A DNA stretch of 64,000 bases from Lineolata rhizophorae (taxonomy: Eukaryota > Ascomycota > Dothideomycetes > Lineolatales > Lineolataceae), in the NCBI GenBank assembly GCA_010093515.1, contig MU001679.1, forward strand, positions 109,628-173,627, read 5' to 3'. The translations under genes were made by a program, and so were the position numbers. The stretch's first letter is position 1; every line of letters starts with the position of its first letter. The notes under the pieces were generated by a model that saw nothing but the letters and a program-made list of their open reading frames with translations, had not been told where the DNA came from and did not search any database. This document shows positions 1 through 63,568 of the stretch, piece after piece.

Positions 1-1
1 T

Positions 2-15838: not shown

Positions 15839-17147
15839 TCAAAAGATGGCCAAAATATTTGGCGGACTCGCAACGCCTCCAGGGACCTACCAAAGAGTTC
15901 GTCAGTTGGCGATAAGCAACGCATAAACAACGCAAAAGGAGAAAGTATCCACCCACATTGCATGGCTCACTAACGACAAAGAAGGTCCACCTATTTATCT
16001 TCTTACATTCTGCCGCCAGCCCCTCCAAATCAAACATCTCCCCGATCGGACAACCCCAGCCTGACAACAACACCTCGTGCAATGACCACTCGCTCTGCTG
16101 AGACGGCCAGCACTCAAATGTCGGGTGATCGCCCGCCACCGCCGCAAAATGGTCCCAGATCCACTCCAGCATCTCGGGGCTCTGCTCCACGCCCGAGAAG
16201 TGCGGCGGAACCACCTCGGCCAGCACCTTCAGCTCGTCCTTCGGCTTCGTCTGATGCGCCTCCATATACCCACTGCGCAGAATCAGCACGTCTCCCCATC
16301 GCACCTGCGTACCTTGCCACTCCAAGCACTGCTTCAGCTCCTCTAGTTTAATTACGCCCGTTTCGAACGGGTCGTACGGCCGCACGGCCTGGCCTTGCGC
16401 GGCTAGCGCGGCGCGCCACCCGGCGAAGTCGACCAACACGCCGCGGCCCACGATGCCGCGCTCGGCCCAGGCGTGGATGCCATTGACGGTGCTGCTGGGG
16501 GAGGCGTGAATGTCGCCCATGGTGACGCCGTTGTAGAAGCGTTCGGCGTGCTGGTACGCGAAGTGGCGGAGGCCGTCCCCTGGATAGAATGGTGGTGAGT
16601 TCAGGGCTGGGAAAAAAAAAGCTTCGAAACTGAACTTTTGAACGAGATCAGGGACGTAAAAAAAAAAAAAAAAGAAAAAAGGTAAAGTAGAGATCCAAAG
16701 TGCTGGATATATGTAGGAAACGTACACTGGCTGCTGCTCTGCGTGTTGAAGGTCCAGACGTCATCGTTGACTACCCTTGGCGGCTTCGGATACACGTGTT
16801 TGTGGAAGGCTTGACGGCGGAAGAAGGGCATGTCAGCCTGGGCATCTAGGGGCCAGTTCATCGAGATTCTATCAATCGTCAATGAGCATCGGGCAAGTGA
16901 ACAGAGTCCATGGCTAAGAAGTTGAGTAACAGACCGCACGCCGGTTTTGATTTCCTTCGCCGCTTCTTTGACAATGTCATCAGTGAGGCGGTTTAGAGTG
17001 CCCAGCTGGTCATCCTTGCCATATCTAATCGATCCAATGTTACTTCCTGACTGAATGAAGGCTATAGATGACTTACAAGCCCCACGCGGAGAAGGGTGGG
17101 TCATCCTTCCCAAGGGGAAGCTCGGAGAAATTGGGCATCTTGTTCAT
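15839..17147 (-). CDS. Cyclase-family protein (PF04199-like)
   Basis: Five exons read from the minus strand: 17147-17077, 17024-16935, 16868-16726, 16579-15957 and 15886-15839. They give 324 aa with all phases consistent. The family includes metal-dependent kynurenine formamidase and polyketide cyclase-like hydrolases. Recognisable family motifs are WGLYGKDDQLGTLNRLT near residue 22, a RISMNWPLD segment, DDVWTFNTQSSSQWDGLRHF across the exon 3/4 junction, TVNGIHAWAERGIVGRGVL, and the C-terminal NVPGGVASPPNILAIF. The bacterial HxGTHxD metal motif is replaced by QWDGLRH, as I recall for the fungal subgroup, so activity cannot be assumed. It shares a 285-bp promoter with the divergent amidase gene. 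The last intron starts with GTGGGT and keeps the conserved C-terminus. Confidence 0.85.
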
Positions 17148-32889: not shown

Positions 32890-35800
32890 ATGTCTTTTTT
32901 CCGCAACCTCGGCGGTGGTGGCGGTGCCTCGTCCTCCGGACAGACGCCCTCCCTTTTCGGCTCCGCTGGCGCTCAGCAGCAGAATCGTCCGACTTCATCT
33001 GCACCAAATCCCACTCCCAGCTTTTTCGGGAGTCTTGGAAGCGGCTCTTCTTCTGCAGCGACCAGCGCAGGTGGTGCTGCGACCAGCGGTGCAGGCACGT
33101 CACCTAGCCCATTTGGCGGCTTCGGCGCCCCGAAGCAAGGCTCTCTGTTCGGCGGCGGCGGCGGCGGCGCCGCTGCCGCCGCGGGCAACACTAGCACCGG
33201 AGGTGGCCTAAGCGGATTTGGCGCGCTAGGAGGCGGCCTTGGAGGCGGTTTCGGCAATACAGCTTCGAACGCGCCTGCGTCATCTGCGCAACCTGCTACC
33301 TCGACCGCGGCGACAACGTCGGCGCCCCCTTTGGGCGGCGGGTTTTTTGGCGGTGCTCAACCGGCCACGACCGGCACCGCGACGACATCGGCAGTGCCTG
33401 CGTTCGGCGGCGGTCTCTCCGGCGGCGCGCAGCCGCAACAGCAGCAGCCACAACAGCAGCCGCAACAGCAGCCGCAACAGCAGCAGCAGCCAGCGGCAAC
33501 GAGTGCTCCAGCGTCCGCTGGAAGCACGTTCGGCGCTGCGCCTACTAGTTCGGCCGCGGCATCGGGAGCAGAACGGCCCGCGCTGAGCCTGTTTGGAGGG
33601 GGAGGCGCGACCAGTGGAACTGCTGGGACGACTGGACAGCAGCAGCAGACCACCTCGCAGCCGACGTCCGGAGGTAGCGCGTTTGGCGCTCTTGGCGGCG
33701 CCGCTGCAGGCGGAACGACGAGTGCGGCTGGGGGCGGCATGTTCGGTGGTACGCAACAACAGCAGACGACCACGGCCGGTGGTGGTTTAGGCGGAAGCCC
33801 GTTTGGAAGCCTGGGTGGCGCGACATCTGGTGCGCAGCAACAGCAGCAGAAGCCTGCTAGCGGAAGTCAGTTTGGTAGTCTCGGAAGCGGCCTTGGGGGC
33901 GGCCTTGGAGGCGGCCTTGGAGGAGGCGGCCTTGGAGGCGGTCTTGGAGGCGGTCTTGGGGGTGGTCCTGGGGGCGGTCTTGGTGGCGGTCTTGGTGGCT
34001 TGGGAGGAACGTCGACTCAGGCGGGCCAGCAGCAATCTACCGCCGGTGGCAACATGTTTGGCAGCACCTTTGGGACAGGCGGGCTTGCTCAGCCAAATCA
34101 GCAGCAGCAGCAGCAGCAGCCGCAGAGCAATCAGAACAACTTGAATCAGTCACAGCAGGGCCAAGCGGCGTATTTTGATCACCTCCTGGAGCGCGGCAAG
34201 AAGAGGAATAACTTGGAGAACGGCGGCACGCAGTTCGGCGAACTGCCGGCGCTGCAGCTGGGCTTGGCTGACATTGCAAGGAAGGTGAGAAACTTGGGGA
34301 GTGGTGGGCCGAGTGCAGAGGAAGCGAAGAAAGGCAAGACGGAGGGGGATAGCAGGGCGTAAGTTTCTCACTTATGTCTACGTTTATGATTCAGTACGGC
34401 TTATGGTTCCTCTTTCTACAGCCACTATATTCTGGCCGGCTCGTCCCTGCGCGATTTTAACACGTTGGTCAATACTGTTGGGCCATCTGCGGCTGTCGAC
34501 ACCGATTTGGACGGCTTCGTCTCGAACCTGCACGCACAATCGACCCTTGATCTCATCTCCGAGTCACTCGAGCAGTCCAAACGCGACTTCGACACCTACC
34601 TTGAAGATAATGTCCAGATGGAGTGGGATACACAGCGCAAGCGCATCTACCAGCACTTTGGCCTTGTCCGGCCCGACGAGCCCGAACCTGACGACAACCA
34701 GCAGCAAGGCGCAGGACTCAATGGCAGCTTCGGCGCGAGCGCCTTCGGCCGCTCCTCGCGTCGTGGTCGTGGACCGACCGCTCCAACCATGTCTTTTGGC
34801 ACTTCCGGGATGACTAAGTCAGTAATCGGCTCGCCGGCCGTCCACGGCGCTTCTAAGACCTCTGGTTTCGCCGACATCGCCGAGAAAGTCTCGACTGCCA
34901 ACGTGCCGTCCCTACCGGAGGACCGCTTCCTACGCGACAAGGAAGAGAAGTTCGCGACCAAGGTGCGTGAGCTCAACCTGGCGCGTGTGCAACAGCAGCA
35001 GGGCTTCCCGTTACTGCACGGTTTCTCCGAGGTGGAGGCGCAGGCGGCGGCGGCTCAAGGAGCAGGAACAGCGGGGCTCAAGCTAGTCGATGCGTACAAT
35101 GCACTTGTGCACATTACAGGCGAGAAGGATGAAAGCGGCGTTGCAAATGCGATCAGGGAGAGGACGTACATGGAGCCGTACTTGGAAGAGAATCCGAACT
35201 CTCCGGTTGCAGTTGAGTTGAGAAAGAGGATTGTGAATGGGTCGAGGACGTTTCTGGAAGAGCAGTATGTCTACCTTTCTTTCCTTTCCCAACTACTTCG
35301 ATCAATACTGACTCATGTCTCTACGTCAGATTCTGGGGCAAAGTCTTGGATATTATCAAGAGGAACCCGCGCGAAGCCAGTGTTGGAGGTGTTCCAACGC
35401 CCGTCAATCAAGTGCGCGCCTATATTCGCGTCCTGCTAGCCCGACGCGAATTCAGCGCAGATCCTTCGCGGTTCCAGCAAATGGACGAGGACTACTGTTG
35501 GATCGTCATTTACTTCTTCCTCCGTTCTGGCAGAGCGGCCGAGGCGTACAAGTATGTGCAAGACAACGAGCGCTCTATGCGCAGCATCGATCGTGCCTTT
35601 GTCAGCTACCTCGGCGCGTACACGAGGAATGCTGAAGGCCGTCTCCCACCGGAGCTCCAAAATCGCATCAACACAGATTACATAGCCCGGTCTCGCGCTG
35701 CGGCTGCGACATCGTCAGGTGCCGGCTCCGCCGACGCGGCCGCCAACGCCATCGACCCGTACCGTCTGGCTTGTTACAAAATCATCGGCCGTTGCGACTT

Positions 35801-37271
35801 GCATAAGCGCAGCTTCGACGATATCAATCACGACGTTGAAGATTGGCTCTGGTTGCAATTCGCGCTAGCACGAGAGTCAAGCCGCGTCGAGGAAAGCGCA
35901 GGCGACACGTTCGGCCTGCAGGAGCTGCGCTCCAGCATCACTGAGATCGGCCAGCGCCACTTCCAGAACGCGACCGAGCCGGGCTCGTACACAGTCTTCT
36001 TCGTTATGCAGATCCTCGCGGGCATGTTCGAACAGGCAGTCGCCTACCTCTACCCGCACAACTACGTCTCAGCTGTGCACGTCTCTATTGGGCTCGCTTA
36101 CTACGGGCTTTTGCGAGTCTCATCAGGACTGCATCCCGCTGCGGCGGCCGAGACCGACTTGCTGAGCTATACGACGCGCGAGAAGCCGCAACTCAACTTT
36201 GGTCGTATGGTTGGCTACTACACACGCGATTTCCGCGGGGCCCACTCCGAGGCCGCCGTCGATTATCTTGCTCTCATTTGCCTCAATGGCGACCTGCCCG
36301 GTGCCGCAGGCCAGTCTCAGACGGCCTTATGTCACGAGGCGCTCCGCGAACTTGTGCTAGAGACTCGCGAGTTTGCTGGCTTGATCGGCGATATCCGCGC
36401 AGATGGCGCCCGACAGCGCGGTACCATCGAGCGCCGCCTGCCACTCATAAGGCTGCAGGATCCTAAGGAGTTCCTCAAGACGGTCACGGTTCAGGCGGCT
36501 AGCGTGGCCGACGACAACGGCCGCACCACAGACGCTGTCCTGCTGTTCCATCTCGCTGAGGACTACGACGCCGTCGTTGGCATCCTGAATCGCGCCCTCG
36601 CCGAAGCCATCGCTGTTGAGGTTGGGGCCGAACCAATCCGCCTCGAGCCGCTTCGCCCTCGCCGCGTCGACGCCGCAGAAGATGCTGCCGACGGGCAAGC
36701 GCAGGCGGGCGCACAGCAGCGCGGTCCGCCGACTAATCAAGACAAGGGCCTGCTGGCGACGCTGAGCCTGATGACCATTGAGGACCCCGAAGAACTGGCC
36801 AAGGCCATGATCAGCCTGTACAACGGGCACGCCATGTTCTACCGGCACGTGCGCTCGACAAACCGCGACACGTGCGCCATGCTGCTGCAGCTAGCCGAGG
36901 CGAAGAGGCGGGTCTCGCAGGGCCGCTGGGCTGACGCGCTGGACCTCATCCAGGGGATGAATCTACTCCCATTGGCCGCCAACGGTAACGTCGATGCGAT
37001 TCGCCATGCTGCGGCCACGTTTGGCCAGCTGCCAGCGCCGGTGGCGCGCAACGTGGGACACCTACTCATGTGGACGATCACGGCGTGCGGGCGCCAGAGA
37101 GAGCTCCTCAGGAGCAGCCAGTTTGAGGACGCGAATAGGAACGCGATTGCGCAGCAGCTGCTCCAGACGAGTATGGACCTCATGGTGTACGCGGGGCTGG
37201 TCAAATATAAGTTGCCCCCGCGGGTGTTTGAGGAGTTGGCGAGGGCGGGACAAGAGGCGGGCGCTTATTAG
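32890..37271 (+). CDS. NIC96: Nic96/Nup93 nucleoporin with long FG-rich N-terminus
   Basis: Exons 32890-34358, 34422-35264 and 35330-37271 give 1417 aa with consistent phases. Nic96 anchors the Nsp1-Nup49-Nup57 channel trimer in the inner ring of the nuclear pore. After an N-terminal region rich in FG and GLFG-like motifs (roughly residues 1-420, at least 15 FG), the family helix AYFDHLLERGKKRNN appears at about residue 427. The SSLRDFNTLV region follows, then FADIAEKVSTANVPSLPEDRF, and then a long helical solenoid (HFQNATEPGSYTVFFVMQIL, DDYDAVVGILNRAL-like segments, LVKYKLPPRVFEELARAGQE) to the C-terminus. Yeast Nic96 is 839 aa and the core here is of normal length. The excess comes from the Gly/Gln-rich N-terminus, which includes a 12-nt tandem repeat. 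It is a likely essential gene. Confidence 0.9.
33887..34006 (+). repeat. 12-nt tandem repeat coding GGLG units in the nucleoporin N-terminus
   Basis: About nine imperfect copies of a 12-nt unit (GGCGGCCTTGGA-like) encode a run of Gly-Gly-Leu-Gly repeats, flanked by poly-Gln stretches. Such a tract could vary in copy number between strains. Confidence 0.85.
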
Positions 37272-39717: not shown

Positions 39718-40905
39718 TGGCCTGGAAGGGGGCGGAAGACTGGAGGTATTTCATCTTTTATGCGTGAAGATGGCTTGGATGGAGTCCAGACAGGTGGTGC
39801 GCAACATCAGGTGATGGTCACGCCGCGGATCACTCCCGTTAGATGCCGGCATTTGAAGCGCGGGGCCATGCAGCTCTTGGGCGGGGGGCGGGGAGAGGAA
39901 TTGCTCCATGCTACGAGGACAATTGACAGAGCAATTGGTCCGCAGATTCGATGAAGCCGACTCTTTTTGCGGATGCGGATTGGAGTTGAGGTCCAGTCAC
40001 GATAGAGCGCCAAGTAGACAACAACAGCAACTTTAGCCTGGCGTCAGGTCGCGAATACCTGCCCCGGCCAACCGCGCGCACTATCAACGTGCAGGAGAAA
40101 GCTCGGAGAGAGACCCCGCGAGGGAAACCGAGTCCCTCCGCGTGCATCGCTCGAGACAGCAATGAACCTCCGGCCGGACGCTCAGCGACGATGCCGCATC
40201 CGGCATCGACGCGCTGCGGCAAGCCTCAAGCATCATCAAGCATTGCCGTGCCCCGCCCAGGATAAGCTTGCCGGGCGCCACACCCACTCCCGATGTCAAC
40301 ATCGTTCTTTCCGACAAACCCACCTAACGAAGGGACCTCCCGGCCAGTGACGCTGTCCGAAATGTCTCACTTATCGGCGTATCAGCGACCCCTTGCTGAA
40401 ATTCCTCCTGCACAGACCTGCCTATTCGAGCGTGCGGGACGGAGGACCCTGGCCCGCCCAACCGCAAGGCGATCAACAGATCGTCGTCCCGATGACGGTG
40501 GTTGTTCCCGACCGGCCTTATTGCCGCGCTCGTCTCCCGCTCGCACGCGAGACCTGTGATCCCGGGCCTTTGTTTGAGTAGGATCAACAAGGGCGGCACT
40601 GCGTGGGCGCCAGCGACGTGGGACAACCTTATCAGCGAATGTTGGGACCGGCCGACGATGACCCCCGACGCGGGCAAGGATGGCTGCAAGGCCGACGTGC
40701 CTTGCGCGCACTTGTGCGCGAGAGAAAGGGCAAAAGTGGATGGGATGGGCGGGGCCACCGACGATATGCACTCGATCGTCAGGGTGCTCGTACGACGGGG
40801 CCCATATATTAGGGACAAGGCGTTACCTGAGGAAATGTAGAGGCGTTCCAGAGCTCTACTCCACTGTCACGTCTATTCAGCGGGATTGAAAGCGGCGTAG
40901 TCAGA
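39718..40905. promoter_or_regulatory. Divergent intergenic region (fumarate reductase / MFS permease)
   Basis: About 1.2 kb, GC-rich. No gene supported. Several open frames occur on both strands because of base composition. Confidence 0.55.
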
Positions 40906-43030
40906 ATGGCTGACACGAAGTCAATTGAAACGCCTTCCGACCGCCGTGACAGCGACAAGACGGCCTCGGAACGCGATGTCGAGAAAGAGCCCATCCCGGG
41001 CATCTCTGCGGATGCCATCCGTGCGGGAGAGGTCCAGCCGGAGAAAGTACTCAAGCACGCCGTTGACGCGGACGAGGCATTGAAAGCTTTCGCCCAGTAC
41101 GGTGGACAAGTGATCCATATCGACGAGGAGACGAATCGCCGGCTGCTGAGGACGATTGACTGGCATCTCATGCCCGTAGGTGGTCCCATTGAATGCGAGG
41201 CTTGAATCTGAATGCTGACATTAGTACACCTTGGTGCGAAGATTATGTGTGTTGTTTATGGTCTGAACTTCTTGGATAAGACAACTTTGAGCTATGCGTC
41301 TATCATGGGACTGAGGGAGGACCTGAATCTGTCTGGCCAGGATTATTCATGGCTAGGAAGGTAAGCAATAGTCTGAGGTCTCAATGCTTCTGCTCCTGTC
41401 CTGATTATGCTATGCTCTTCGTTTGCTTGCACTTCAATGTGGGCAAATTACTGTCCACCTCTGCTTTTTTCTTTCGTCTTATATTTTCATAACCGTTTCC
41501 TCCTTTTTTGAAATTCATGTGGCCTACCGAATGTCCGTCTCTTAATGTCGAATGCATCTATTTACCCATACGTATCATTACATTTCACTCTTGGAACTCT
41601 CTCTTACTATTCTATATGATTACAGCCTCTACACCAGCAATTACTAACTTTATAACAGTCTATTTTACTTTGGCTACCTAGCATGGGAATTCCCCACCAA
41701 TCGCCTTCTCCAGTACCTCCCTCTCGGGAAGTACTCTGCCTTCAACATCATCATGTGGGGCACCGTCCTCGCCTGTTTCGCAGCTGTAGAAAATTATGCT
41801 GGCGCTATTGCCATTCGTTTCTTCCTCGGCCTGTTCGAGGCCGCTGTCACTCCAGGTAACTACCCCCACCCTCGCCTATCTCAAGCAACAATGAAATATT
41901 AAGCTTCTTTCTAGGGTTTGCTCTCTTTACCTCGCAGTGGTATACCAAGAAAGAACAAGGAACTCGCACCGCCATCTGGTTCTCCTTCAACGGCTGGGCT
42001 CAAATCTTCGGTGGCCTAGTCGCGTACGGCATCGCCGTGGGCAGCGCCAAGCATGGGAGCGCCATTGCGCCCTGGAAGATTGTCTTCCTAGTAACAGGCC
42101 TTCTAACGGCCGCCATGGGCGTCATCTTCCTTTGGGCAGTACCTGACAACCAGATGAACTGTCGTTGGCTCAACAAGGAGGATCGGATCCTAGCAATTGA
42201 GAGAATCAGGATCAACCAACAGGGTGTCGGAAATAAACACTGGAAGTTCTATCAGGTCAAGGAGGCCCTAAAGGACCCGCTGACGTGGGCCTTTGTGTTT
42301 TATTCGCTCGTGGCCGATATCCCCAATGGTGGGTTTCTGCACTGAACTTTATTTGCACTCCATTCAGCCCTAGATTCTTCGTTCTGTACGACTGGCTAAT
42401 CTAATATTCTTTTCCGCAGGCGGCATCACGAACTTCTTCTCCCAGCTCATTGTCGGCTTCGGCTTCACGCCCGAGCAATCGCTCCTCTACGGCACCCCAG
42501 GCGGCGCCGTTGAAGTCATTTCCCTGCTCCTCTGCGGCTACCTAGGCGACCGCTTCGGCCACCGCCTACTAATTTCGACCAGCGGCCTCCTCACCGCGCT
42601 CCTAGGCATCATCCTCATCGTGGCCCTCCCCCTCGAAAACGATGGCGGCCGCCTCGCCGGCTTCTACCTCACCATGGCCGCCGCGACGCCCTTCGTCGCG
42701 CTGCTCAGCCTCATCAGCTCCAACGTCGCCGGCTACACCAAGAAGACGACCGTCGCGGCCATGTACCTGGTCGCGTACTGCGTCGGCAACATCATCGGGC
42801 CGCAGACGTTCCGCGCCGACGAGGCGCCGCGATACGTCTCGGGCGAGGTCACCATCATCGTCTGCTGGTCGCTGTGCGTGCTGGATATCGTCTTCATCTG
42901 GTGGTATTGCAGGCATATGAATAGGAAGAAGGAGGCCATTAGGAATGCGCCGGGCTACGTCAAGTTGGAGAACCAGGAGTGGTTGGATCTGACGGATCGG
43001 GAGAATCCGGAATTCGTGTACACATTGTAA
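40906..43030 (+). CDS. MFS transporter, allantoate permease (Dal5) type
   Basis: Exons 40906-41175, 41242-41360, 41659-41855, 41915-42328 and 42420-43030 give 536 aa. The N-terminus is polar (MADTKSIETPSDRRD). The first membrane segments begin after DWHLMP, with YGLNFLDKTTLSYASIMGL typical of the anion:cation symporter (Dal5) family. Then come the family motifs PTNRLLQYLPLGKYSAF, GLFEAAVTPGF and WYTKKEQGTRTAIWFSFNGW in the N-terminal half, and GYLGDRFGHR in the C-terminal half, for about 12 membrane spans. Such permeases import allantoate, ureidosuccinate, nicotinate-like or dipeptide-like anions. The substrate is not predictable. Acceptor 2 (GCGAAG) is non-YAG and is chosen because it alone keeps the conserved LMP-I-M frame. 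Confidence 0.85.
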
Positions 43031-43600
43031 GTGTGGTGGGTGGGATGCGCACGCAGGTATGAAGCTATGAGAACGAAGTGTCGGTTAATGTCTGTTTGGT
43101 TTGCTATTTGATTTAAAGAATGTTTTCTTGGGGTTTAGAATCTGAAGATACTCCAACTAGCGAAGAATGGTGATCAGAACTACGATAATTACAAGACAAT
43201 TTATGTCGCATATTTCGTTCGAGTTTTTCGTAAATTTTATGTGTCTTGGATATTATATAGCTCCATTTGACAGAAATTTCAAAGCGCACAAAGATGTATG
43301 GGGTATGACAGAGTTGCAATGCCCTTACTATCATAGTGTCAATATTAGCTGGATTACCTTTTCTAGCTCTGAAACTCCCAAAATTTTTAATGCATCAACT
43401 AAAGTTAAATAAAACCACTGCACTTATCGACGGTTTAATCGTTTCAAGGTCGCACATTCTAAAATAGTCTACGAGCTGTAATAAACGAACGTTCTACTAG
43501 TTGCCGTCTATCTCGTCTATCTATATAGAAATTGCTAGGCAAACTGTACCCATACACCAGAAGCAATGCCCTTATTCGACCGATCTCCACACCTACTGAT
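43031..43600. other. Convergent intergenic region
   Basis: An AT-rich stretch between the MFS permease and the armadillo gene. No feature seen. Confidence 0.6.
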
Positions 43601-46243
43601 TCACTCCTTGTTTTTGCTGGGAACTCTGTGCGACCCCTCCGCTTGTTCCGCCAATTCCAGAAGTCTCTTGTCCAATATGTCCTCATCCTTTCTTTCGGCT
43701 TCCGTGGTGCCGTCAAATCGAGCATTGATCAAGAGTCGCACTACAAATTCGACGTTGCTCTTGTTCATTTGGGCGCGCGAAGGGGCATGTTTGGGCCTCG
43801 AGGACGTCTTCGAGAGCGCACTTGGCGCCGGATCTGTTGCATTGTCAGATCGATTGGTCAAAAAATGGGGAATGTCGGTATCAGTGGTAGGAGTAGAAGC
43901 AGAGGATAAAGTGCACAAGAAGGGGTTGGAATCAGCATCGGTGGTGGCGTTGCTAGGGGTGTTGTAAGCTTTCTCACCACTCGGAATATTGCAGTGCTGA
44001 CCTTTATGTTTAACTTCATTCTCGTCCGTCACACCTTCAAAGGCTCGTTCAACATTTTCCAGTTCAACTTTGGAGGAGAAGGGCCCCGACTGACTGGCCG
44101 AAATCATGTCCTTGAGAACTTCGAAGATCTTTCCACTCTCCCGTGAGTTCTTGAGCGCATCCCTAACCGTTCTAGCACCTTTATCCACCCGAACTAGGTG
44201 GCCTAGTCCAACCAGCGCCTCCCAGCGTGCTAGATCGGACTCGTCTATTAACAACCGAAGAATGGCTTCGGGCACTCTATCCATCCGAACCAGGCGGTCG
44301 AGCACGGTGTCAACTGCCGAAGTAGCGAGCATCTTGCCTTTGCCTTTGCCTTGCCCGCCCCAATCCCGAGGCGGTTCAGAATGAGACTGAACGTCCCCAG
44401 GCGTAGCAGGAAGAGGGTTTGCAGTTTCTGCAGCTGTCTCCGCGTCTCTCGCGTTCGACAAAGTGCGAACAAGAGCAACGACGGCGCATGCAATCTCCGT
44501 AGAAACATGTTTTTCGAATGCTGGCCCGGAATTGAGGAAGCTTGAAAGGATAGTGAGAGGACTCGGCAATTTAGCGGAATCCTGGTTCTCCGTTGCGGAC
44601 ATAGGCGGAGTGAGGCGTTTGGAAGCACTTTGCGAGGCATCTGGCCCGACGACTGTTGAGGAAGCATCTTGCTCGGAACTTGCAATCATGGCCGGCGAAG
44701 ATAGCTCGCTAGAGTCCGGAAGTAGCCGCTGTCCTGTGACCACGTACGCTGCGGTGTCCCTCTGGCCCTGTACGAGTGCGCGAACCAATCCAGCAGCCTG
44801 CAGAACCAATCTAGGCTCCCCTGGATAAGCTTGCATTATTCGCAATGCGGCCTTTACCCCTGTTAGTCCGATGTGGGGCTTAGTCTGCGGCGGCTTTGCC
44901 AAATTCTTGAGAAACTGAGCAGCCGCGAATGTGGTCTCGAGACGCTCTTTCGACCCATCAGCCCTATGAAGTATCCTGAGGACTGCGATGTGACAGTCCG
45001 CTTTTAGGACCATGCGCCTGCACGTGCCGTCGTTGTTTGCAAGATTGCCAAGCATGATGCATGCGACTGTACGCTCGAGCTCGGATGAGCCATGGTGAAG
45101 CCAATGATTGAGTCGTATCACGGTTTCTGAGACCGCGCCATGGTTCGAGAATGATGGCTCGGAAGACAACTCCGCGAGTGCATACAGGAGTTCGCGCTGA
45201 ATACCGTCGAGTTGGGAGTGCATATCAGCAAGGTCCTCAGACAGGTCATCAGATGCCGTCGGGATCGTGCTACGTTGTTGCATCCAATTGGCCTTGATCT
45301 TTTCGCGCTGGCTCGCGATAGATTTAACGAGACCAAAGACCGATTTGTGATTAACCCAGTCGCCTGCGATCATAGAACGAAACGGGGCACTTTTTAGGTA
45401 CGTCAGGACGACCCAAACGAGATTTACATAGCATTCAAAGCTATCGATACGTTCGGCTGCCGATTCAATGTTCTGGACATGCTTCGCACCGGCGCGTAAC
45501 GTGTACTCGTCGGACATGTGCTCATTCATCCAGAACAAGAGGTCAACAACGTATTCGGTTTCGGGAGACTCCAAATCGACCCAGTTCTCGCAAAGGCTTT
45601 GTGCCAACTGAATGTCCAACCCTGAAGCAAGAGCGGCCTTCTGTGTGTCCGAATTCTCGTTGCAGATGTTGAAAAGTGCTTTGATGGCTGTCTCATAAAT
45701 ATCTTGCCTCGATACGCAAGCTGACAATTGTCTCATATACGCAATTGTGACTCTCCGGTTATCGTCTATATGGAAACCCGAGGATTAATACTCATTCCCT
45801 TTAAACGAGTTGTAAGTAGATACAGTAGAGGTGGACATACCATTATTTGCACAACAATTCCCGATGACGCGCAAAAACTGCTCATTTACATGTTGATGGC
45901 CGCTCTGCGGATTCAGTGCATTCAAGCACTCGTTCAGGATGCCACTATCCGCATAGGCTTCTTTCACCCTTTCTAAAAGGCATTAGGGCGCTTCTAAAAT
46001 GCTCCCGGAAATCGGCTTGAAAGGGGAGCACGTACCGATTTTACTGTGGTCAGCTAGTATCTGGAGAGCGACACAAGACGCAGGCGTATTCTCCAGGAGA
46101 CCAAGTCGAGTCAACCACGGCCAGAATTGAAATATTTGGCTCAGGTCTTCGTTTTTGAGGTAACGATCAAAAGCCACTAGGGACTGCTCCTGGCCATCGA
46201 TCTTCCAGAATTCCACCTGAAAGAAGCCAGCGGACCAGTCCAT
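43601..46243 (-). CDS. Armadillo-repeat, SmgGDS-like (Rap1 GTPase-GDP dissociation stimulator) protein
   Basis: Exons 46243-46036, 45972-45841 and 45765-43601 give 834 aa with consistent phases. SmgGDS proteins are armadillo-repeat chaperones and exchange factors for small GTPases. The N-terminal exons match the family: WPWLTRLGLLENTPASCVAL, VIGNCCANNDDNRRVTIAYM and YETAIKALFNICNENSDTQK. The armadillo repeats continue through HGSSELERTVACIMLGNLAN and EPRLVLQAAGLVRALVQGQR, with a disordered Ser/Glu insert around 500-580. The C-terminal third is low in conservation and lysine/acid-rich. ATG at 46241-46243 is preceded by a favourable context. The GTPase partner is unknown. The gene is divergent from DPM3 across about 0.9 kb. 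Confidence 0.75.
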
Positions 46244-47152
46244 GGTCTCGTACTTTGACGGCGACCCTAACTTAAAAAAATGAATGCGCGTGATCCTGAG
46301 TGTAGCCAGACGTATGTAATATAAGCAGGTGTCCCTAATCTAGAAAATTAAGGACTTGTCTTTTGAAAGGCTCATATGTCGTTGAATATGAAGAAGATTA
46401 TTGGTGGCACGATTCGAAAGGGAAAGATGTGGAAAGGATGTTTCACTCTCGTTAAGGACGACCAAGCTTCCAAAGGGATGCCACGGCCATGAAGTCCGTG
46501 GTAGGAACGCAGGGAGAGGGGAAATACTGATTTACCTGGTTGGAAGGCACAACATCCAGCCCAAAATCGACTAAGGGGAACAGCTGCCAGAGCGTCCGAC
46601 GCTAGGTTCCTACTCGGTATACAGGAATCCAGTTTCGGGACTCGGGATCTCTCGTGAACAAGCTGCAGGGCTTATCGATCTGGTCCCTGCGACCATAGCA
46701 GCCTCAGACGGTAAAGCGAAAATCCAGCACCGCCAGGCTGTCCAATAGGTCCTAGGCAAAGCCCTTTCCACGGAACATACTGTGGTCATTGACGCCTAAG
46801 GACGTTCTTAGGGTGTCGTTCAAGTACGGAGGGGTCGTTTCTTCTTCCGAAGCTCGGCTGCTTAGCCTTCTATAGCTCCTCAAGAGCCTCAAACGTAGAT
46901 CATAACTTTTTTTATTTACAAGCCATGCGATAAAGCCAGAGTAGAGTTCTAATGTGCAAGTTGTCATAGGGAGGATTATGGGGCTGTACTGTTGCTGAAA
47001 TCGAGGTGTTGCCCATCACGTGCACGAGAGCCACCCCGACAAGCGAGCTTGCGAGAACGTCGACTGCATTGCGCCACGTTCCCCGGGCCATCATTTATAA
47101 CTTCCATTCACTCCCTTGCCAAACGACGACGGTGTGCTCTTCCACCAGCAAG
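46244..47152. promoter_or_regulatory. Divergent intergenic region (SmgGDS-like / DPM3)
   Basis: About 0.9 kb with no supported gene. Both 5' regions lie here. Sequence around 46360-46760 is moderately complex, and nothing is recognised. Confidence 0.5.
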
Positions 47153-47654
47153 ATGACGCGTGCTCAGCAAACTATTTCCGTTGCTCTCCTCATCACCTCC
47201 GTACGCCCACCGAATCTAAATTGTTCGGCGTCCCTAAGCCAATGACAGACAGCTAACCTACTTCCCCCTAGATCTACCTCGCCTGCTTCCTCGGCCTCAT
47301 CCCCTTCTCCGCCAAGGTCCAGGATGAAATAATACCCGTCGTACGACCCTCTGCCGTGATTCCACACTCGCACAATCATCTCGCAGCCACTCCGCAAATT
47401 CGGTCAAACTCGGCTCGAGTTCCGATTCCCCAGCATATCCCCACATTTCTTGTCCCAGAAGAACAGGCTCTAACATACAATTATCTCATTAGCTTCCCCT
47501 CTGGGCTCTCGTCTCCTTCGGCGCCTACCTCCTCGCCCGCCTCGGCTGGGGCGTCCTGACCTTCAACGACACGCCCGATGCGCATAAAGAACTCATGGAG
47601 CAGATTGAGCAGGCCAAGACGGATCTGCGGGCAAAGGGCGTGACTGTGGATTAG
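47153..47654 (+). CDS. DPM3: Dolichol-phosphate mannosyltransferase subunit 3
   Basis: Three small exons (47153-47200, 47272-47340, 47493-47654) encode 92 aa. DPM3 is a small ER-membrane protein that anchors and stabilises the catalytic DPM1, so Dol-P-Man can be made for N-glycosylation, O-mannosylation and GPI anchors. The sequence starts MTRAQQTISVALLITS, with two hydrophobic membrane segments (IYLACFLGLIPFSAKV and ALVSFGAYLLARLGWGV). It then has the conserved cytosolic coiled tail DTPDAHKELMEQIEQAKTDL and ends KGVTVD. All intron phases are zero. The match to family length and the ends of the protein is very good. Confidence 0.9.
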
Positions 47655-48268
47655 ATGGCTTTGGCTATGGGCGTGTGGCGGAGGCGCCGTTGATGCATTC
47701 AGGGATTGGGCATATTGCCTGTAACGGGTGTGCTGTATGATAGCTTTGGCAATTGTGGCGTTGAATGGGAGAACAAAATGGGAAAGGTCAATACGCCTCA
47801 TGGTGTATAGATTTCGGGTTCATTTAGCTTTGGCACACCGAACAAAATATATCCTGTGTTCCTGGCACTTTTCCAAAACGATTGCCGCATCCGCTACTTC
47901 TAAGAAGTCCGCATCGTAATAATTCCGGTAGCTAGGTACGCCAAAACCATTTAGGGCTTTTAAATTGCACCTCGGCTAACCTGGATACCCGCATAAGTAT
48001 TTAGCTATCGAAAACCTAGGAATTAAGATGTCAGATGTTGTATGTTGGGCCCTACGTTACTAATTATGATGATACAGTAGTCAACACGAATGTCTGAAAT
48101 ACATGTGCCATGGCTTCATCGTACCAAAATACGCTCGGTGCTTTTCAGGGATGAACAAACTGGACCGTCACACATTAAATCATGTCAATTTCAGCCCGCT
48201 GCTCCATACGACTAAAGGCCACTCATCCACCTTAGCCTACCACCCGCCAAGCCGTAACTTTCGCCTTT
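47655..48268. other. Convergent intergenic region
   Basis: AT-rich 3' flanks of DPM3 and the TMEM16 gene. No feature seen. Confidence 0.6.
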
Positions 48269-50789
48269 TCACTGCTCTTTCTTCCCCTCCCCGGCCTCCG
48301 TGGACGCTCTCTCAATCAACCTCTTCCCCACCTCCGCACACTCCCTCCAGCCCTTCTGTCTCCCCCAAAATCTCTCTTCAAGACTCATCCCATGCTCACT
48401 CTGCCTCCTCGCCTCCTCCTCCAGGCTCTCCCGGCTGATCTTGACCCCATCCTCTCCCGTCGCTAACGCCACATTCTCCTCGCCGTACTGCTTCGGCGCG
48501 TGCTCCAGCGCCGCCAGGCTCTCCTCGAAGTACTTGCGTCGGACTAAGAATCGCTCGCGGCGCTCCTTCTGGCGGCCGGGCGAGTCGAGCTTGCCGATCG
48601 CGATGCGGACCGCCCAGCGGACGAGCAGGAAGGCATGCTCGGAGAGGAAGACGCAGAGCAGCAGCGCCCAGGCCTTGATGTCGGCCGGGGTGCCAACGTG
48701 GCCGACGCCGTCGTGCGAGAACATGTAGACCAGGGCCGAGGTGGTGATGGAGCCGAGCCAGGCGAGGAAAGAGAGCGAGTCGAGCCAGGGTCCGATGGTG
48801 TCGGCGCGCCAGGGCGTGGGCCGCTGCATCTCGACGCAAATCTTGATAGCGTCGGCCCGCAGCTCGACCCAGTCGTTGATGAGGAAGGAGACCCCTGTAA
48901 GGGGCCATACGACGGAGAACAGCGCGAGATAGCCGAACTGAAGGAATCGTTAGTATCTCCAATGCTACGGAGTCTAACGACAAAGGGCGTACCTGTAGCA
49001 CCATCTCTCGCAGATCCGTCGTCACGTCATACACATCCAACTCAGCTTCGTTCCGCACTCGGGCGAGAAAAGCTGCTTCCTCTGGCGGGTCGTTCGCCGC
49101 GACGTCGGCCGTGCCTCCTCCGTTCTTAGCGGCGCGGTCGCTTTGCATTTTCTTGAATTTCGCAAATCCCCTCCGCTTCAGATACGGCACAACCACTTCC
49201 ATACCCAGGTTCACTAGCTGCGCCGTCACAGTAAAATAAATGACTTGTTTACGCAGTCTGTCTGGGTTAATGGTAAACCCCTCCTCAGGAGCCTTGAGCT
49301 GCTGTTCGTTCTCGGCAAATGGCTTGACAGTGACGCTGAAGATGTCAAGATAGGGGATGATCCAGCTGCCAAACGGAACATAGACAAAAGCAGTTAGAAA
49401 GATGGCGAGGTAAGATGTAATAAAGTTGAGAACAAAAATCTTCTGCGTAAAAGCGGTCTCGTAGGAAGAGTCGGTTTCGTAGTTCTCGTAAGAATTGAGT
49501 TGAGAGGCAAAGTTTGTGAGGATGGCCGTGAGAATCGGAAGGCATGTAGTGAGAATCCCAGTTGGCAGGAATACCTACATAATGTCAGACAGAAGTCTCA
49601 TCGAGATTTTGGAGAAGACTTACCAGAACGAATTGGAGAGGGCCATTGTATATCTCTCGGATGAATATTTCAATTCCGAAGCAAGTAGCGATCAGAGTGC
49701 CCAACACAATCGTTGCAACCAGAGCAAATGGAATCTGAAGCAGTTGCCGCATAAGTCTCTTCTTGGCCGGGTAATACTTGACTGTCTCCCCGGTAACAGG
49801 GTCCGTGATCTCCTTCTCGTGTTGGAATCCTTTCCGTTTCGTCTCAATCGACGAAACCCCGCGAACACCCCAGCGCACCGCGAGATCATATTCCTGATGC
49901 TTCCAGTATTCCGTAAAGATGATACACCACAGGCTAATCACAATAGCGTAGACGGGCGAGAATTGGCCAAGTAATGTCCAAGCGGAAAAGCCGAAGACGG
50001 CTGGGAAGACAAGGAATGCGAAATATGACTGCGTGAACGCAAAGTAAAACCCAATCTGAATTGTCTGTCAGTAACGATACAAACCTAATTTCCACAATCA
50101 TTATACACCGCCTTACCTTTTCGCCAAGTCTGTCCCGAATAGCGTCTAGATCTTCCGCCTTTAGAAAGTACGCTGTGCTCCACTTCTTGATCCACTCCTT
50201 GTTGTACGCGTGGTCATGCAGTGCGAATATCGACTCCACATTTTTCCATTCCCCTTCTTTCGGTGTGATGCCAGCGCCTCCTTCTGTCGGGGAATTGGTA
50301 ATGAGCTGGTAGATAATTCGCAGGCGCTCAGCCTCGTTCAGCGGATCAGACTCGAGTGCCTCTTTGGTTTCTTTCTTCGGAGCTGCGGCTCTCACGCCGT
50401 GGATCCAGTCCTTGACTCTTTATTTGAACCAGTCAGGCAATCTGCTGCCATGGACGCAACTTGAAGATACCTGCAGACTGCCCACTCACCGCGATCGGAA
50501 AACCTCCCCGTACAGATGCTCTTGCGATGCGACCTTGACAAAGACGAGGAGCGACTGGCTCGCCCCATTGCGCACTTCAGTGTCCAACCCGACCGACTGC
50601 AATGCCTTTGTGAGCTTTTCGAACTGTGCAGTCGCTTCAGACCTGTCTGCAATGGCAGTTGTCAGCGTCTATCAATCGCTAGAGTTCAAACGAGGAAGCG
50701 GTAAACTTGCCAGCACTTGTAAACCGATAGCAGATCACGTAGTCGACGTCCATGTTAGTCTGCAGACCAGGGCTCTTCGGCGGAGCCAT
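48269..50789 (-). CDS. TMEM16/anoctamin family protein (lipid scramblase or channel)
   Basis: Six exons from the minus strand: 50789-50711, 50646-50490, 50417-50117, 50055-49624, 49574-48993 and 48937-48269. They give 739 aa, close to the length of fungal nhTMEM16/afTMEM16. The N-terminal fold starts MAPPKSPGLQTNMDVDYVIC. The family helices follow: FYFAFTQSYFAFLVFPAVFG, IISLWCIIFTEYWK-type segments and PVTGETVKYYP. Candidate calcium-site acids are conserved: D510 and E513 in DLREMVLQFG, E542 and D546 in WVELRADAIKI. Family members scramble phospholipids or conduct ions on calcium rise, at the plasma membrane or ER. Intron 1 is a predicted GC-AG intron (see findings). Acceptor 2 uses an AAG. 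The tail is rich in Glu/Arg. Function as scramblase is inferred, not shown. Confidence 0.85.
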
Positions 50790-51659
50790 GGCTGCGGTAG
50801 AGATGGTGGTATCTGGGGCGAAACACCGCCTGACAGGACTCAGGACTCCCACAAGAAGACGGCTACGCGAGAGTATAACCAAGCGAACAGGCCTGTGAAG
50901 AGGGAGGAGACAAGCAAACGACTACGTAGTATGTCGACGACGCCGTGATGGACGGTGGAACGCGTAGGCTTGGATCGGAGTGCGACAGGGATGCGGCCAA
51001 GGACGCCTTGGGCCCCACGTCATCGGGCAGGGATCAGCCGATCAGATCCCGGTGCAGATGATTGCACGGGCCATACTCACATGCAGTTCCAACAGCCAGT
51101 CGTCCAACGCAGCACCCCAGTCGAGACGTTAGGTGGTGGGGAAAGTCTGTACTGTAGAAAACCTAGGTTAGACAGGAGCTGAGCCACTAGGTACACACAA
51201 AAAGCTGGATCACGTGCCAGCTCGATCACGCGAACGAGCTAGGTCTGCATCGTGGCACATTCATAATCTATACCTGGAACACATTTTCGACTTATAGGTA
51301 ACGAATAAATACTTAGGTTCTTAAGCATTAGTCGCGCTCTATTAACGCCTGGCAATGGAGAATGAAATGGCGGAGCGGAAAAGCCGTAGATGCTTGGACT
51401 TCAACTTCGTGTTTAAGGCCCTACCCAACTATGGAGCTCTTCAGGTTTCGGTCGTTTGGCATTGCTTTACTGGCAGGCTTATACTTCATCGAGCCTCTTC
51501 AGCAGCTACAAGGCTATTAAGTCTTCTTCTTCTTCTTTTTTTTTTTTTTTTTTNNNNNNNNNNGGCCATTATGACTAGACAGTTCCAATATAACAGCTGG
51601 AATACGTTGACCTTGGAGTGGTTATTACATGACAGGCTCTATAGGCAAGGCTAGTGGTA
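50790..51659. other. Intergenic region with assembly gap
   Basis: This includes the TMEM16 promoter, a T-run ending at a 10-base gap, and the 3' side of the ankyrin gene. An open stretch at 51355-51654 crosses the gap and is not credible. Confidence 0.6.
51554..51563. other. 10-base assembly gap (N)
   Basis: Ten Ns follow a long T tract (at least 18 T, 51536-51553), so the true length is unknown. It may hide a longer low-complexity segment. Confidence 0.98.
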
Positions 51660-54289
51660 CTACACCATGTTGAAGTATATGCTGAGCTCGCGGAACACCA
51701 GACTTTGGAGCTCGCGGTGAGAAACACCAAGCGCATTTCCAGGCCGGTCCACAAACTTGCACGCGCAGTAGTAATCTGCCTTGATGTACCTGGAAGTAAA
51801 GCGTTTCTCCCAAGAGTACAGGTTGAAAAACTCTGGGATGTCAAGTCCCCGTTCAACAAGAACGGCGTACCACACATCTGCTAACATGCTGCCATACACT
51901 TTATCATCCACCCTACTATACGCGATGTCAGAAGGCGAGGCTCCGGCATCATTAATCGCGTGGGCATTAGCGCCATAGCCCAAGCAATCCAGCAAGTCTC
52001 TCTTAAGGTCAAAAGTCGTGTAATAATCAAAGCCTGACTTTGCCCGACGATGCGCCATGTCGAGCACAATGTGGAGGCACGTATTTCCATGTTTGTCTCG
52101 AGCGCTAAATCAGCGCCGAGCTTAAAAAGACCTTTTATAAATTGACGAGAACGTCCATGCCAATAGAAAGCCTGCAGAAGTAAGGTTTTGCCGTCGGCAT
52201 TCGTCTCCTCAGTGTCTATGAATTCTCTGCCGTACCGCATCAAAGCCTGAAAAGTCTAGTTACTCTTAAATGTTTTCAGTCGATCCTAGATATATGCTTA
52301 CCGTTCCATAATCTATTAAGTAAAGGCACATAGTATACCCAAACTTATCTGCAAGCATCGGATCCGCTCCAGCTTCGAGAAGGAGGCGCAATAATTCCTC
52401 GGTTCTACCAGTATACCAGTTGGAGAACTTTACATAAGAAAGTAGGGGAAGAGCAATTCCAAGCACGTCATTTTTTTCGACTGAATTGACATCTGCGCCA
52501 TGTTCAATGAGTAGGCTGATTAATTCGAGATGCCCATACTGCATTGCATGCTAATTTCAGTCACTAAAAATGCCTGCAAATGGTAACGATAGGGAAAGAC
52601 ATACCCCAAGCAAAGATCTATCTTCTTCGTCATAGTCCCGGAGGGACGCCTTGCCCTCTTGAACTAGGCAAAGCAGCCCGTGGATATCTCCTTTCTCCAC
52701 GAGTTTGAATATTGGCGAGTCATTCGGCACCCTCCGATAGCCAACTATGATCGGATTCAAAGTATGAAAGCCCCAGTTGTTCATCGTCTGGGTGAAGTAA
52801 GTTGTAATTTTGGAATTTGCCCCGGTTCCCGCGATGACGTGGACGCTCGCCGTCATCTCGACCAGTTCGTCATGTTCTGAAGTTTGGTCGTCATTCTCCG
52901 GCCGGATGCTCCGGGGCTTGTTTGCTACACGGTAGCGCTTTCGTGTCTTGAGGTCGACATTGACGCCGGCGATATTGAAACTCTGGTTGATTCGGCGATA
53001 GTAATGTTTTCCGACCGCACGGCTTTGTGGCAGAGTTTGAGGTGCTGCCGGCATATAATTAGTAATAACTCGAGATGAAGTTTCGCAAATACCTTAGGCT
53101 TACGTCTTTGGTTAATGGTGACCTTGTCAGAGGCATTTGCCAGGCGGCAGAGTTTTTTGAGGTCCACATTGAGGTGAGCATTCTCTGAATCATCAACAAG
53201 CTCCACTCGTTTTCTCTTTCGGTTCTGGAAACCACCTGGGTCATTTTGTTGATCGAGTTGCTTTGATGCTGCGTTTAAAAGCTGGTTTAAGTCACTGATG
53301 ATGTCTTCAGCATCGCTAGAAGAAGCGACTCGCTCTTTTGATTCGGCAAGCTTGGACAGATTTTTTATGGACTCGAGGAACTGGGTGTATTGTTCCTTCT
53401 CGGCTTCTTCCTCTTCGATATCCACTATCCGCCTGTCATCTTGAAGGGCCTCAGACTCGTAGGTACTCTGCTGAGATTGCTGCGCGTTTGATAGCTCGAC
53501 GACTTGATTCTGGAGAGTGGAAACCATCGCCATTATGGTCTGGAACTGTGCGGTCGAGACTCCAGGTAGGTCATCCATCTTCTTGTGCAATGAGTGAAGA
53601 GACGCGGCTGTTTCCGTTTGCGTAGTGCCCTCGGATATTTTTTCCAGACATCTCACTCTGTTGTCAATGCTCGTAAGAGATGGAGGATAGAGTGGTAGAC
53701 TGGTGGTGGCAGAGGCAGCAGCAGCTTGGCTATCACGAGCTAGACCCGTGAAACCAGTGCTGGTGAAGCCATTGGCTCGGACAGCTGATTGTACATCACT
53801 ACATATGATTGTCAAATGCCTAAACAACTAACAAGCGCAGATTGTTTAAATCGATTGGATCCAGTATTCGTACCTTGTGATAAAGCTGAAGCGCGCATGA
53901 AGGCATGAAACGTGCCATTGAATAGTTTGCCGCATGGACTCAAAGTCATCCTTCTGGAAGAATGTCCTGACTTGCTTCCACGTCCGCCTCATCCTACTGT
54001 CACTCGGCGTTTCCTGCAACTTCTCCAGTTTTGCGGCGATCTTTTCAACTTCGCTGTTGCAGTTTCCAAGCGCTTTAAGCAATTCGTCCATATCTTTCTT
54101 GTCAAGGCCAGTCTAAACAATTTCGGTACGCTGGAGCCGTTTGAGCAGATTGTCCAGCGTGTCGACGGCAGACACCAGCTGTCTAACTTCCTCAGGCCCA
54201 TCCTTGATCCCGGATACCACCCTGTAGATGGCCCCGGTCGACCTGAGCCCGACCGTGATGAATGCCAGAACGCTAGCACCGACTTCCAT
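51660..54289 (-). pseudogene. HeLo-like N-terminal plus ankyrin-repeat gene with premature stop and frameshift
   Basis: Predicted exons: 54289-53874, 53798-53104, 53044-52605, 52550-52302 and 52246-51660 (about 795 aa if intact). The N-terminus (MEVGASVLAFITVGLRSTG) looks like the fungal Helo_like/STAND N-terminal domain, here followed by a coiled-coil Gln/Glu-rich middle, a bipartite basic signal (NRKRKRVEL) and several ankyrin repeats (HLELISLLIEHGADVN, ARDKHGNTCLHIVL). Such proteins are NLR-like candidates for allorecognition or innate immunity. Two lesions are seen: an in-frame TAG at 54113-54115 in the N-terminal domain, and a 1-nt loss near 52105-52112 inside an ankyrin repeat (exon 5 is 587 nt, one short of the expected phase). 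Exon signals and phases are otherwise good. One lesion could be an assembly error, but two suggest inactivation. Confidence 0.75.
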
Positions 54290-55770
54290 CTTCGCTGATA
54301 AGCGCAAGATTAGCACTCAGCGACGGACTGGCGAGCCATGAACGAATGGCGCAACTGATGCCAAAGCATTAGCTGGTCGGAACAACAAAGAAGCCAGTTT
54401 AAAATGAGTAAGTGACGCGTCAAAACTGAGCGACACGGACAGTCGTGGAAAAAGTTGAGGAAGACGTAGAAGCAATGTCCTCGCAGGACTGGGAGAAAGT
54501 TTTTGTGCCGTCTCGCAAGGCTGAAGTGAGTCTAAGCTACGCCGCATCTCGAGTGCCTAGGCACGCTAACCCCAAGCGGTGCGGTGGCCCTGTAAGATTC
54601 CAGTGGAAATCTGGAATGGGTAGGCCAAGTCCATTGACATTGGAAGAATGGTGCTATCTGAGGCTGCATGAATACACTTGTAGAATCCCTGTTAGGGGTT
54701 GGCGAACTAGGCCCAAATAGGCCACCTAATATTCTGACAGGCCCATTGGGTGCCATCAGGCAGACACGGCTGAAATTGGGATGATTTCATTGGCTGAGGA
54801 TAAAGGACCATTTCGACACCGGTCAGAGTAAGTAAATCGAAATAGAAAGATAGAGCATTTTATGTGAAGTATGGAACGAGGCTTGGCCTACCACCCTCCT
54901 TCGCTATGGAGCGAAATGCCTCTTATGTACGTCCACGAATCCTGTCAGGAGAGAAAATTACCGGCGACAGTTCTTGTTCCTAAAACGATCCGTCAAAGCA
55001 GAGTGAAACGTTTTCGAAATCTCTCTAACCACCTTTTAGTGAGACTAACGTGCAGGGCTGATTTGTCGCCGTGTCCATTGCCAATTGGCTCAAGCACTGC
55101 CACGTTGGCGTCAACATGGAAAGTCCGGGATAAGCCTTGTGAGAGCCCTGCTGCGCTTTCTGTCGACTCATCCTCATCTCTAGTAGCGAATATTGTAGTG
55201 TAATCTTCAATGTCCAATGATTCTAACCATGCGTTTGGCTGGTAGAGGGCGGGATGCGGCTTCTTCATGGAACATTGTGCTCAATATTAGTCCAACAATA
55301 AGAAAACGGTCACAGGAACAGATTAGCCGCTTAAGTACTAATAACTAGAAAGTATGTGCATGATTAAATATCTATACTTCCATAGTACCATCATGTGCTT
55401 ATGCCTCTAATCATAACACTGCATATTGCACTTCCTATGGAGGCGACAAGATAGAAAAACAAGTAAAAGACACTAGCAGTAAGCTAGTTCTCGTCTTCCG
55501 CGTGTACGTCTCGCAGCTGTTAACCGTCGAAGTGCTAATAGTACACAGACATTGAAGCTTGGAGCAAAAACATCTGAAACGCGACCCGCTTTGTCCGCGT
55601 GAATGTGCCCTATCGTACCTACTCACTTGCCCAGGCAAACCTACGCTTTTGAAACAAACTCCAAGGACGCCAATCCAAACCCAAAGCGACTTCCAATAAA
55701 TGTACGATGAAAGAAATATGTCTATAAACGCACCATCGTACACGAATAGCAGCTCCATCCCCGTTCTATT
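54290..55770. other. Intergenic region
   Basis: No supported gene. The minus strand at 54993-55268 is open for 91 codons with peptide-like composition (HPALYQPNAWLESLDIEDYT) but no recognised family. The plus strand at 54445-54720 is similar. Confidence 0.4.
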
Positions 55771-56886
55771 CTACGACTTGCTAAGCGCCTTCTTCAGCTC
55801 CGTGCATGCTCTTGCGTAATGCTCCTGCACGCCCGGCGTCACCCTAAGCGGGTTCGGCGCTTTATCCCATGCGTGCGGGGCACCCGGCACCATAGTGTAC
55901 TCGACGTCTTTGCCAGCTTCGTTCCGAAGCCTGTCCCGGAACCTAATTCCTTCCGCGAGCAGCATATCCCACTCACAAGTGTAGAGGACGATCTTGTCCG
56001 GCAAGCCCGCGGCGAGCAGGTCGGCGGGGGCCACGCCAGGACTGAGAAGCGGATCACTCATGTCTAGGGTTGGCGGCTGTAGGTAGGATTCGTCGAAGAG
56101 ATCTGTGAAGACGGCGGGGAGCTGCTGGTCCACGCGAGGATTCGTCATGCGGCGCTGCTCGCGGGTCTGGGTATAGTCCGTACTCGGATACCAGCTCACA
56201 ACCGTCCTGATCTTCAGCTCGCGGCTGACCTTGACGCGCGGGCGCTCGTCGGGCGACGCCCCCTTGAGCAGCGTGCGGCGCGACGACTGGGCCGAAACGT
56301 TGCTGGTCTCGGAGAAGTCCTCGTCGTCGTCCTTGCCGTTAAGCTCTTCCATCGGCAGAAGCTCTTCCGCTAGCCGCAGCGGCACCGTGAAGCACATGCT
56401 AGCGCCCGACGAGAAGCCGCTCAGCGCGATGCGGTCCGGGTCGATGTTCAGCTCATGTGCATGCTGGGCGACGTATATCACGGCGTCGCAACCGTCTTCG
56501 ACGGCCGTCGGGAACGGGTTCTCGGGCGCGAGGCGGTAGTTGACATTGGCGACTACAGCGCCCACCTGCTCCACGACAGTGGCGCACCACCGCGCGTCGT
56601 CGGTGGCCTTGCCTAGCGTGAAGCCGCCGCCATGGAAGTTGACCACCACCGGATACGACCTACTGCGCAGCCGCGTCTGCGCCTCATAGTCCGACGGCAC
56701 GTAGAATTGTATCGTGAACTGGCCCTTGCGGGGCGAGATTGTGACGGGGACGGTCCGCGTGAAGGCTGGCGAGGGCGGCCGCGGCGGCGCCAGGCGGTGC
56801 AGGAACATTCCGATCTCCATCAGGAAACGCCAGACCTGGGCCTGGACGTGCAGGACCCAGCGGGGCCGCGGAGGGCGAGACGCCAT
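55771..56886 (-). CDS. Alpha/beta hydrolase, hormone-sensitive lipase (HSL) type
   Basis: Single-exon gene, 371 aa from ATG 56886 (MASRPPRPRWVLHVQ). HSL-type esterases hydrolyse short ester or lactone substrates. Family motifs are complete: HGGG oxyanion loop at residues 85-88, nucleophile G157-F-S159-S-G161, the acidic member in ETCEWD-type context (YTCEWDMLLAEG), and the His in GAPHAWDK. The frame stays open upstream to 57669 and includes a hydrophobic stretch (LALILYFISFFLTLFTGAPL) just before the chosen start, so a longer membrane-anchored product starting further upstream cannot be excluded. The upstream part is otherwise low-complexity and probably 5' UTR. The substrate is unknown. Confidence 0.75.
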   Translation of the reverse strand: MASRPPRPRWVLHVQAQVWRFLMEIGMFLHRLAPPRPPSPAFTRTVPVTISPRKGQFTIQFYVPSDYEAQTRLRSRSYPVVVNFHGGGFTLGKATDDARWCATVVEQVGAVVANVNYRLAPENPFPTAVEDGCDAVIYVAQHAHELNIDPDRIALSGFSSGASMCFTVPLRLAEELLPMEELNGKDDDEDFSETSNVSAQSSRRTLLKGASPDERPRVKVSRELKIRTVVSWYPSTDYTQTREQRRMTNPRVDQQLPAVFTDLFDESYLQPPTLDMSDPLLSPGVAPADLLAAGLPDKIVLYTCEWDMLLAEGIRFRDRLRNEAGKDVEYTMVPGAPHAWDKAPNPLRVTPGVQEHYARACTELKKALSKS

Positions 56887-62479: not shown

Positions 62480-63568
62480 TCACCTGTTCGCGTCTTGATC
62501 GCCCCGATCACTGCTGTTGCTGCTGCTGCTATTGTTATCGTCGTCGCTCGCCGACGGTGCCTCAGCCGGAACCTCGCTGGGCAGTTCGTCTGGGAACCAG
62601 CCGTACTTCATCAGATCAAGGTAGAATTCGCCCATAGCGCCGCGCTCGATAGTGACACCTTCGCGCCGCAACGCTGCGGCCTGCCGGCTCGCGCCTCCGG
62701 GACCTCTATAAGATTAAATGCGCCAAGCAGGCAATGATCAGGCTCTGCGTTGAGTATGGCTGCAGCTCGTTTGGAGTCATAAGAGTGGGCAGGGATACGA
62801 GCGTGGTACATCAACGGTACCTGCCTATCTCCATCCAAATGCCCACCAGCCCAGGCAGCTACATAAGAGCATATGCCGGGCCGCATATAGACAGACGAGC
62901 ACTGCTCCTCTTCTTCCTCGTGATGAGAACGCGTTCTTCCACTTACCTCGGACTTATCCTGCCCTTCGCGTTCACCACGCGCTGCCACGGCACGTTGTCG
63001 TCGTGCCACACAGGTCCGTCGTCCGCTGCCGCCTGCGCCGCGGGCAAGTGTTTGAGCGCCACGCCGACCTGCCTGCGCCGTTGAGTTAGAATCCGAATGG
63101 ACCGCACCGCCCGCGCCCTCGCCGTCCCTCCTTCTGCGTGGAGCACCTTCTCCAGCGAAACGTAGAATGGGCCTGGACTATGCGGCGCGAGCACTAAACG
63201 ACGGGAGAGCGCCCAACCGCTTGCTCACCTAGGACACTCCGCTAGATACGCCCAGCCAAACAGCGCGTTAGCGGGTTTCTCCCATCCAATTCGTCTCGCG
63301 CACGTAGAGGAGGGGCGCAACTCGGGCCGTCAAAGCGGCCCAAGGCGCGCCAGGAAATCACGCTCCCCAAGCACGCAACCGCAGTCTGCCCAAAAACAGC
63401 GAGGCAAGGGATCGCATCCAAAGTGGGCATTTGGGGGGAATTGCACGTACGCCGACCGACTAGCTGCGCGATGTGCCCGTACGAGGTGACTCGTCCGCGC
63501 GGTATCTCCTGCACCGCCTGGTACACGGCCGCGAACCAGGCGGCTGCTTCCTCGGTTCGGGGTGCCAT
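62480..63568 (-). CDS. Alkyltransferase-like (ATL) DNA-repair protein
   Basis: Predicted exons from the minus strand: 63568-63451, 63241-63229, 63072-62947 and 62705-62480 (160 aa). ATL proteins bind O6-alkylguanine in DNA and hand the lesion to nucleotide-excision repair. The MGMT-type helix-turn-helix is visible: WFAAVYQAVQEIPRGRVTSY, GHIAQLVG. Tyr30 and Arg44 are the nucleotide-flipping residues (as Tyr25 and Arg39 in fission yeast Atl1). The Cys acceptor is replaced by Trp73 in VPWQRVVN, the ATL hallmark, so it cannot transfer alkyl groups itself. GEFYLDLMKYGWFPDE matches the fission-yeast C-terminus, extended by an acidic/Ser tail. The 13-nt second exon is required for the family sequence between VGR and RQVG. 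Confidence 0.85.

Follow-up and report, generated by a model that had tools for sequence, protein, structure and literature searches.

A four-exon gene lies on the minus strand at the end of the window, the 64,000-nt stretch of Lineolata rhizophorae DNA that was analyzed. The assembly comprises 31 Mb in 48 contigs, and the organism is presumably a filamentous ascomycete, judged from its gene content. Modeled from homology and splice signals, the gene has exons of 118, 13, 126, and 226 nt and encodes an ATL protein of 160 aa. Exon 1 (63451..63568) carries residues 1–39 plus one base and is followed by intron 1 (63242..63450; 209 nt), which runs from GTACGT to TCTAG and in which a branch-point-like CTAAC begins 30 nt before the 3′ end. 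The 13-nt microexon, CGGAGTGTCCTAG (63229..63241), codes for P-E-C-P, its first base triplet being shared with exon 1, and for two bases of the Arg44 codon. Intron 2 (63073..63228; 156 nt; GTGAGC...GCGCAG) has its CTAAC beginning 17 nt before the 3′ end, and both introns flanking the microexon thus carry this site upstream of their acceptors. Exon 3 (62947..63072) contains the VPWQRV motif, in which Trp73 replaces the AGT cysteine. Intron 3 (62706..62946; 241 nt; GTAAGT...TTATAG) separates it from exon 4 (62480..62705), which includes the stop.

The original prediction had placed a 13-nt microexon in an ATL gene, and its coordinates proved exact, as did the acceptor on the CTAG side and the GTGAGC donor. 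At 13 nt, with TAG before it and GTGAGC after it, this is a fungal microexon, taken as an internal exon no longer than about 30 nt and bounded at either end by spliceosomal sites. Exon 1 stops after the first base of a codon and exon 3 opens with the final base of one; in the splice-site model, the four joined exons give 160 codons with no interruption, in keeping with the claim that the microexon restores the frame at both junctions. Retention of intron 2 would bring a stop right after PECPR, and retention of intron 1 leaves the frame open up to the TAG within its own acceptor. The gene model, microexon included, is very probably correct as judged from homology and the splice signals.

An ATL protein and its Arg finger

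The 160-aa protein scores 83.8 bits against PF01035 (cut-off 27), and an artificial protein without the four residues, which is the product of no splice choice here, scores 71.5 bits. It matches Atl1 of Schizosaccharomyces pombe (E 1.1e-20, query 11–125). In the alignment, Arg44 falls on Atl1 Arg39 and Tyr30 on Atl1 Tyr25, the finger and the Tyr that serve in base flipping, and Arg86 falls on the base-contacting Atl1 Arg69. The PWxRV motif holds Trp73 where an AGT has its active-site Cys, and by its sequence VPWQRV points to an ATL, not an alkyltransferase. The roles of these Atl1 residues and of human Arg128, as well as the meaning of the active-site motif in ATLs versus alkyltransferases, follow the account in PMC10779285. 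The PF01035 score, the Atl1 match, and VPWQRV agree with the earlier identification of the gene as an ATL. Its reading of the segment as P-E-C-P-R was also right, since the exon encodes P-E-C-P plus two bases of the Arg codon, and its proposal that this is the nucleotide-flipping Arg is upheld by the alignment to Atl1 Arg39. Also shared with Atl1 (PDB 3gva and others) are the Tyr, PWxRV, and the C-terminal region. Compared with Atl1, the Lineolata protein is longer by about 12 residues ahead of VPW, and its C-terminal tail is rich in Ser, Asp, and Asn.

The Arg44 codon is split between the microexon and exon 3, and the Arg86 codon (AG|A) is split likewise by intron 3. Introns often sit at AG|G exon junctions. 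Because this preference is common and the Arg86 codon shows the same pattern, the split in Arg44 needs no special reason.

Nine residues separate YGxIA from the Arg finger both in Atl1 and in bacterial ATLs, and in the Lineolata ATL this spacing is restored by the 13-nt exon. The bacterial comparison covered 31 ATL rows: 30 loci among the best matches listed for 119 genomes, all from a single bacterial phylum and 86 of them with a match, and one further locus. All 31 rows have the nine-residue spacing (26 by six-frame pattern and phmmer, 5 by eye), and 28 have Arg at the finger position, the exceptions being L015, L020, and L028; among the five rows read by eye, the spacing holds in all and the Arg in two. 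PxxPRQVG, like PECPRQVG here, occurs in 9 of the 31 rows, and Pro stands in the first place in 19. Two bacterial relatives turned up in a scan of genome contigs, and a scan of viral contigs confirmed no ATL orthologue.

A search of the organism's own genome gave four places, and no paralogue with the same exon was seen among them. Two are the ATL gene's own exons. The match on contig C17 is below the cut-off and lies in a frame of 80 aa, which overlaps one of 920 aa. The fourth, above the cut-off, is a Cys-type AGT on contig C2, in which a single exon holds the whole finger segment. This alkyltransferase lies on the minus strand (L054, G000:C2:1523000-1524600), has VPCHR, and was modeled with two exons and 117 aa. 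By sequence, then, the genome carries both an AGT and an ATL.

The microexon measured against chance

Candidate exons were listed in the 378-nt gap between exons 1 and 3, starting 30 nt inside it, as stop-free, frame-restoring stretches of 1–60 nt between AG and GT. Ten were found, of which 63241-63229 alone combines a YAG with a GTRNG site; the other nine were set aside for lacking one or the other. Without the 13-nt exon, there is no in-frame join of exon 1 to exon 3, and no in-frame ATL was found. As a null model, 20,000 dinucleotide shuffles were made, and some frame-restoring YAG/GTRNG exon of up to 51 nt appeared in 41% of them. With filters chosen after the exon had been seen, although length and Arg are features of the family, an exon of exactly 13 nt appeared in 4.0% of shuffles, a 13-nt exon with Pro first and Arg last in 0.215%, and such an exon with CTRAY upstream of its acceptor in 0.015%.

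The introns of control genes in the same genome give a measure of the splice signals. CTRAY lies in the last 60 nt of eight of the nine control introns, starting 15–33 nt from the 3′ end, and is absent from calmodulin intron 2 alone. Seven of the nine are 50–124 nt long, which is shorter than the introns flanking the microexon (209 and 156 nt) and is a point against the model; the two longer ones, of 166 and 218 nt, are those flanking a 16-nt exon of calmodulin. Recursive splicing was also considered (CTAG|GTGAGC at the end of the exon) and is uninformative here, since exons usually end in AG at their donor.

Very short exons in fungal genes

One gene model each was made for calmodulin and beta-tubulin in this genome, and both contain tiny exons. 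The calmodulin model (contig C14) has 149 residues, one of which differs from the query sequence, and the 16-nt exon is internal. Its locus (L053, G000:C14:426800-428300) also has a coding first exon of 3 nt, the ATG only, and the 16-nt exon supplies a portion of the first Ca-binding loop. In the beta-tubulin model, two internal exons measure 24 and 26 nt, and the coding first exon measures 12 nt. Both genes are essential in fungi, and their tiny exons should for that reason normally be included. Tiny exons are thus normal in this genome and presumably constitutive. The calmodulin exon resembles the ATL microexon in being a multiple of three plus one, in its intron layout, and in coding for part of a functional loop; it differs in belonging to an unrelated gene and in beginning on a codon boundary.

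Examples are found in other fungi as well. The typical gene model of the histone variant H4E in ascomycetes has a 16-nt exon between phase-1 and phase-2 introns, as described in PMC10878826, where the Aspergillus nidulans gene structure is said to have been checked by RT-PCR at the level of gene structure. The H4E structure is called strikingly conserved in Pezizomycotina (PMC10878826); the ATL microexon is a prediction from one genome. In Phanerochaete chrysosporium, P450 genes have exons down to 6 bp, and PMC1184071 counts 41 genes in which an exon is no longer than 29 bp; the likeness is in the very short exons, and the difference is that these are P450 genes of a basidiomycete. The gene Xlr2 of Trichoderma virens has a switch-like, glucose-dependent 20-nt microexon in a DNA-binding domain, with RNA-seq evidence (PMC11121469). 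It too is a short exon in a filamentous fungus, but its glucose regulation was seen by RNA-seq, whereas the ATL exon is predicted from DNA. The same paper describes functional microexons in filamentous fungi as previously undescribed, so that proven regulation is rare; short exons in themselves are not. In the collection of papers searched, none dealt with microexons and alkyltransferases together. Among fungal genes, an exon of 13 nt is ordinary.

Default inclusion and the alternatives

In all likelihood, this is a fungal ATL gene with two introns 13 nt apart, whose very short exon is included by default. Splicing would proceed by intron definition, each flanking intron being recognized separately through the donor, branch point, and acceptor that it carries, and the size of the exon would then hardly matter. 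Under intron definition, efficiency is reported to depend on the length of the intron and not on that of the exon (PMC8624252). The microexon brings back the stretch that holds the base-flipping Arg, and the protein would, like Atl1, bind O6-alkylguanine, flip the base out, and pass the site to nucleotide excision repair. The most likely origin of the arrangement would be the gain of an intron at an AG|G site near one that was already there. That the locus is instead decaying or mispredicted and the 13-nt match due to chance has hardly any probability: the model is based on homology and 13 nt are too few to test for coding bias, but the four exons give one open frame, a fitting exon appears in so few of the shuffles (0.215% or fewer), and Tyr30, Arg44, Trp73, and Arg86 are all in place.

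One could also consider that inclusion is regulated, with conditional skipping leading to a frameshift, an early stop, perhaps mRNA decay, and a turning down of ATL repair. Such an off-switch, which would remove the Arg finger, shift the frame, end the protein early, and so tune alkylation tolerance, is quite improbable. Loss of the 13 nt does shift the frame, as had been foreseen, and gives a product of 72 aa; the stop begins at nt 217, ahead of the exon 3/4 junction at nt 244, and a regulated microexon has its precedent in the glucose-dependent Xlr2 exon (PMC11121469). However, the stop begins 27 nt before the last junction, which is close for junction-dependent decay. The rule for such decay, known from animals, is about 50 nt. 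Despite this short distance, the skipped form could enter mRNA decay, like the products of much mis-splicing. Skipping would also need an intron of 378 nt, the introns on either side each show consensus sites and CTAAC, and calmodulin of the same genome, the routine loss of which would be damaging, needs its 16-nt exon in a similar layout. The proposal that splicing could switch repair off is unsupported.

The exon matters chiefly as a trap for annotation. An automatic pipeline would probably overlook it and give a broken or wrongly spliced ATL; the concern is raised by Xlr2, whose 20-nt exon was missing in an earlier Trichoderma gene model, as reported in PMC11121469. Beyond that, it is a further example of a short exon in a fungal gene. 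Regulated skipping, if it occurred, would place a DNA-repair protein under a simple form of control by splicing.

Across the window, neither ARAGORN nor Rfam at its gathering scores gave a hit. GC content in 4-kb steps is 48–53% at 1-16000 and 40001-56000 versus 57–61% in the rest of the window. Ten of the 24 listed ORFs were scanned, and they include an APH-family phosphotransferase-like protein of 420 aa (6045-7307, plus strand; PF01636) in the low-GC part. Also on the plus strand, at 32890-37271, a Nic96/Nup93 domain is found at 35346-37268, and the Gly/Gln-rich ORF upstream of it (32890-34362) looks like part of the same gene.
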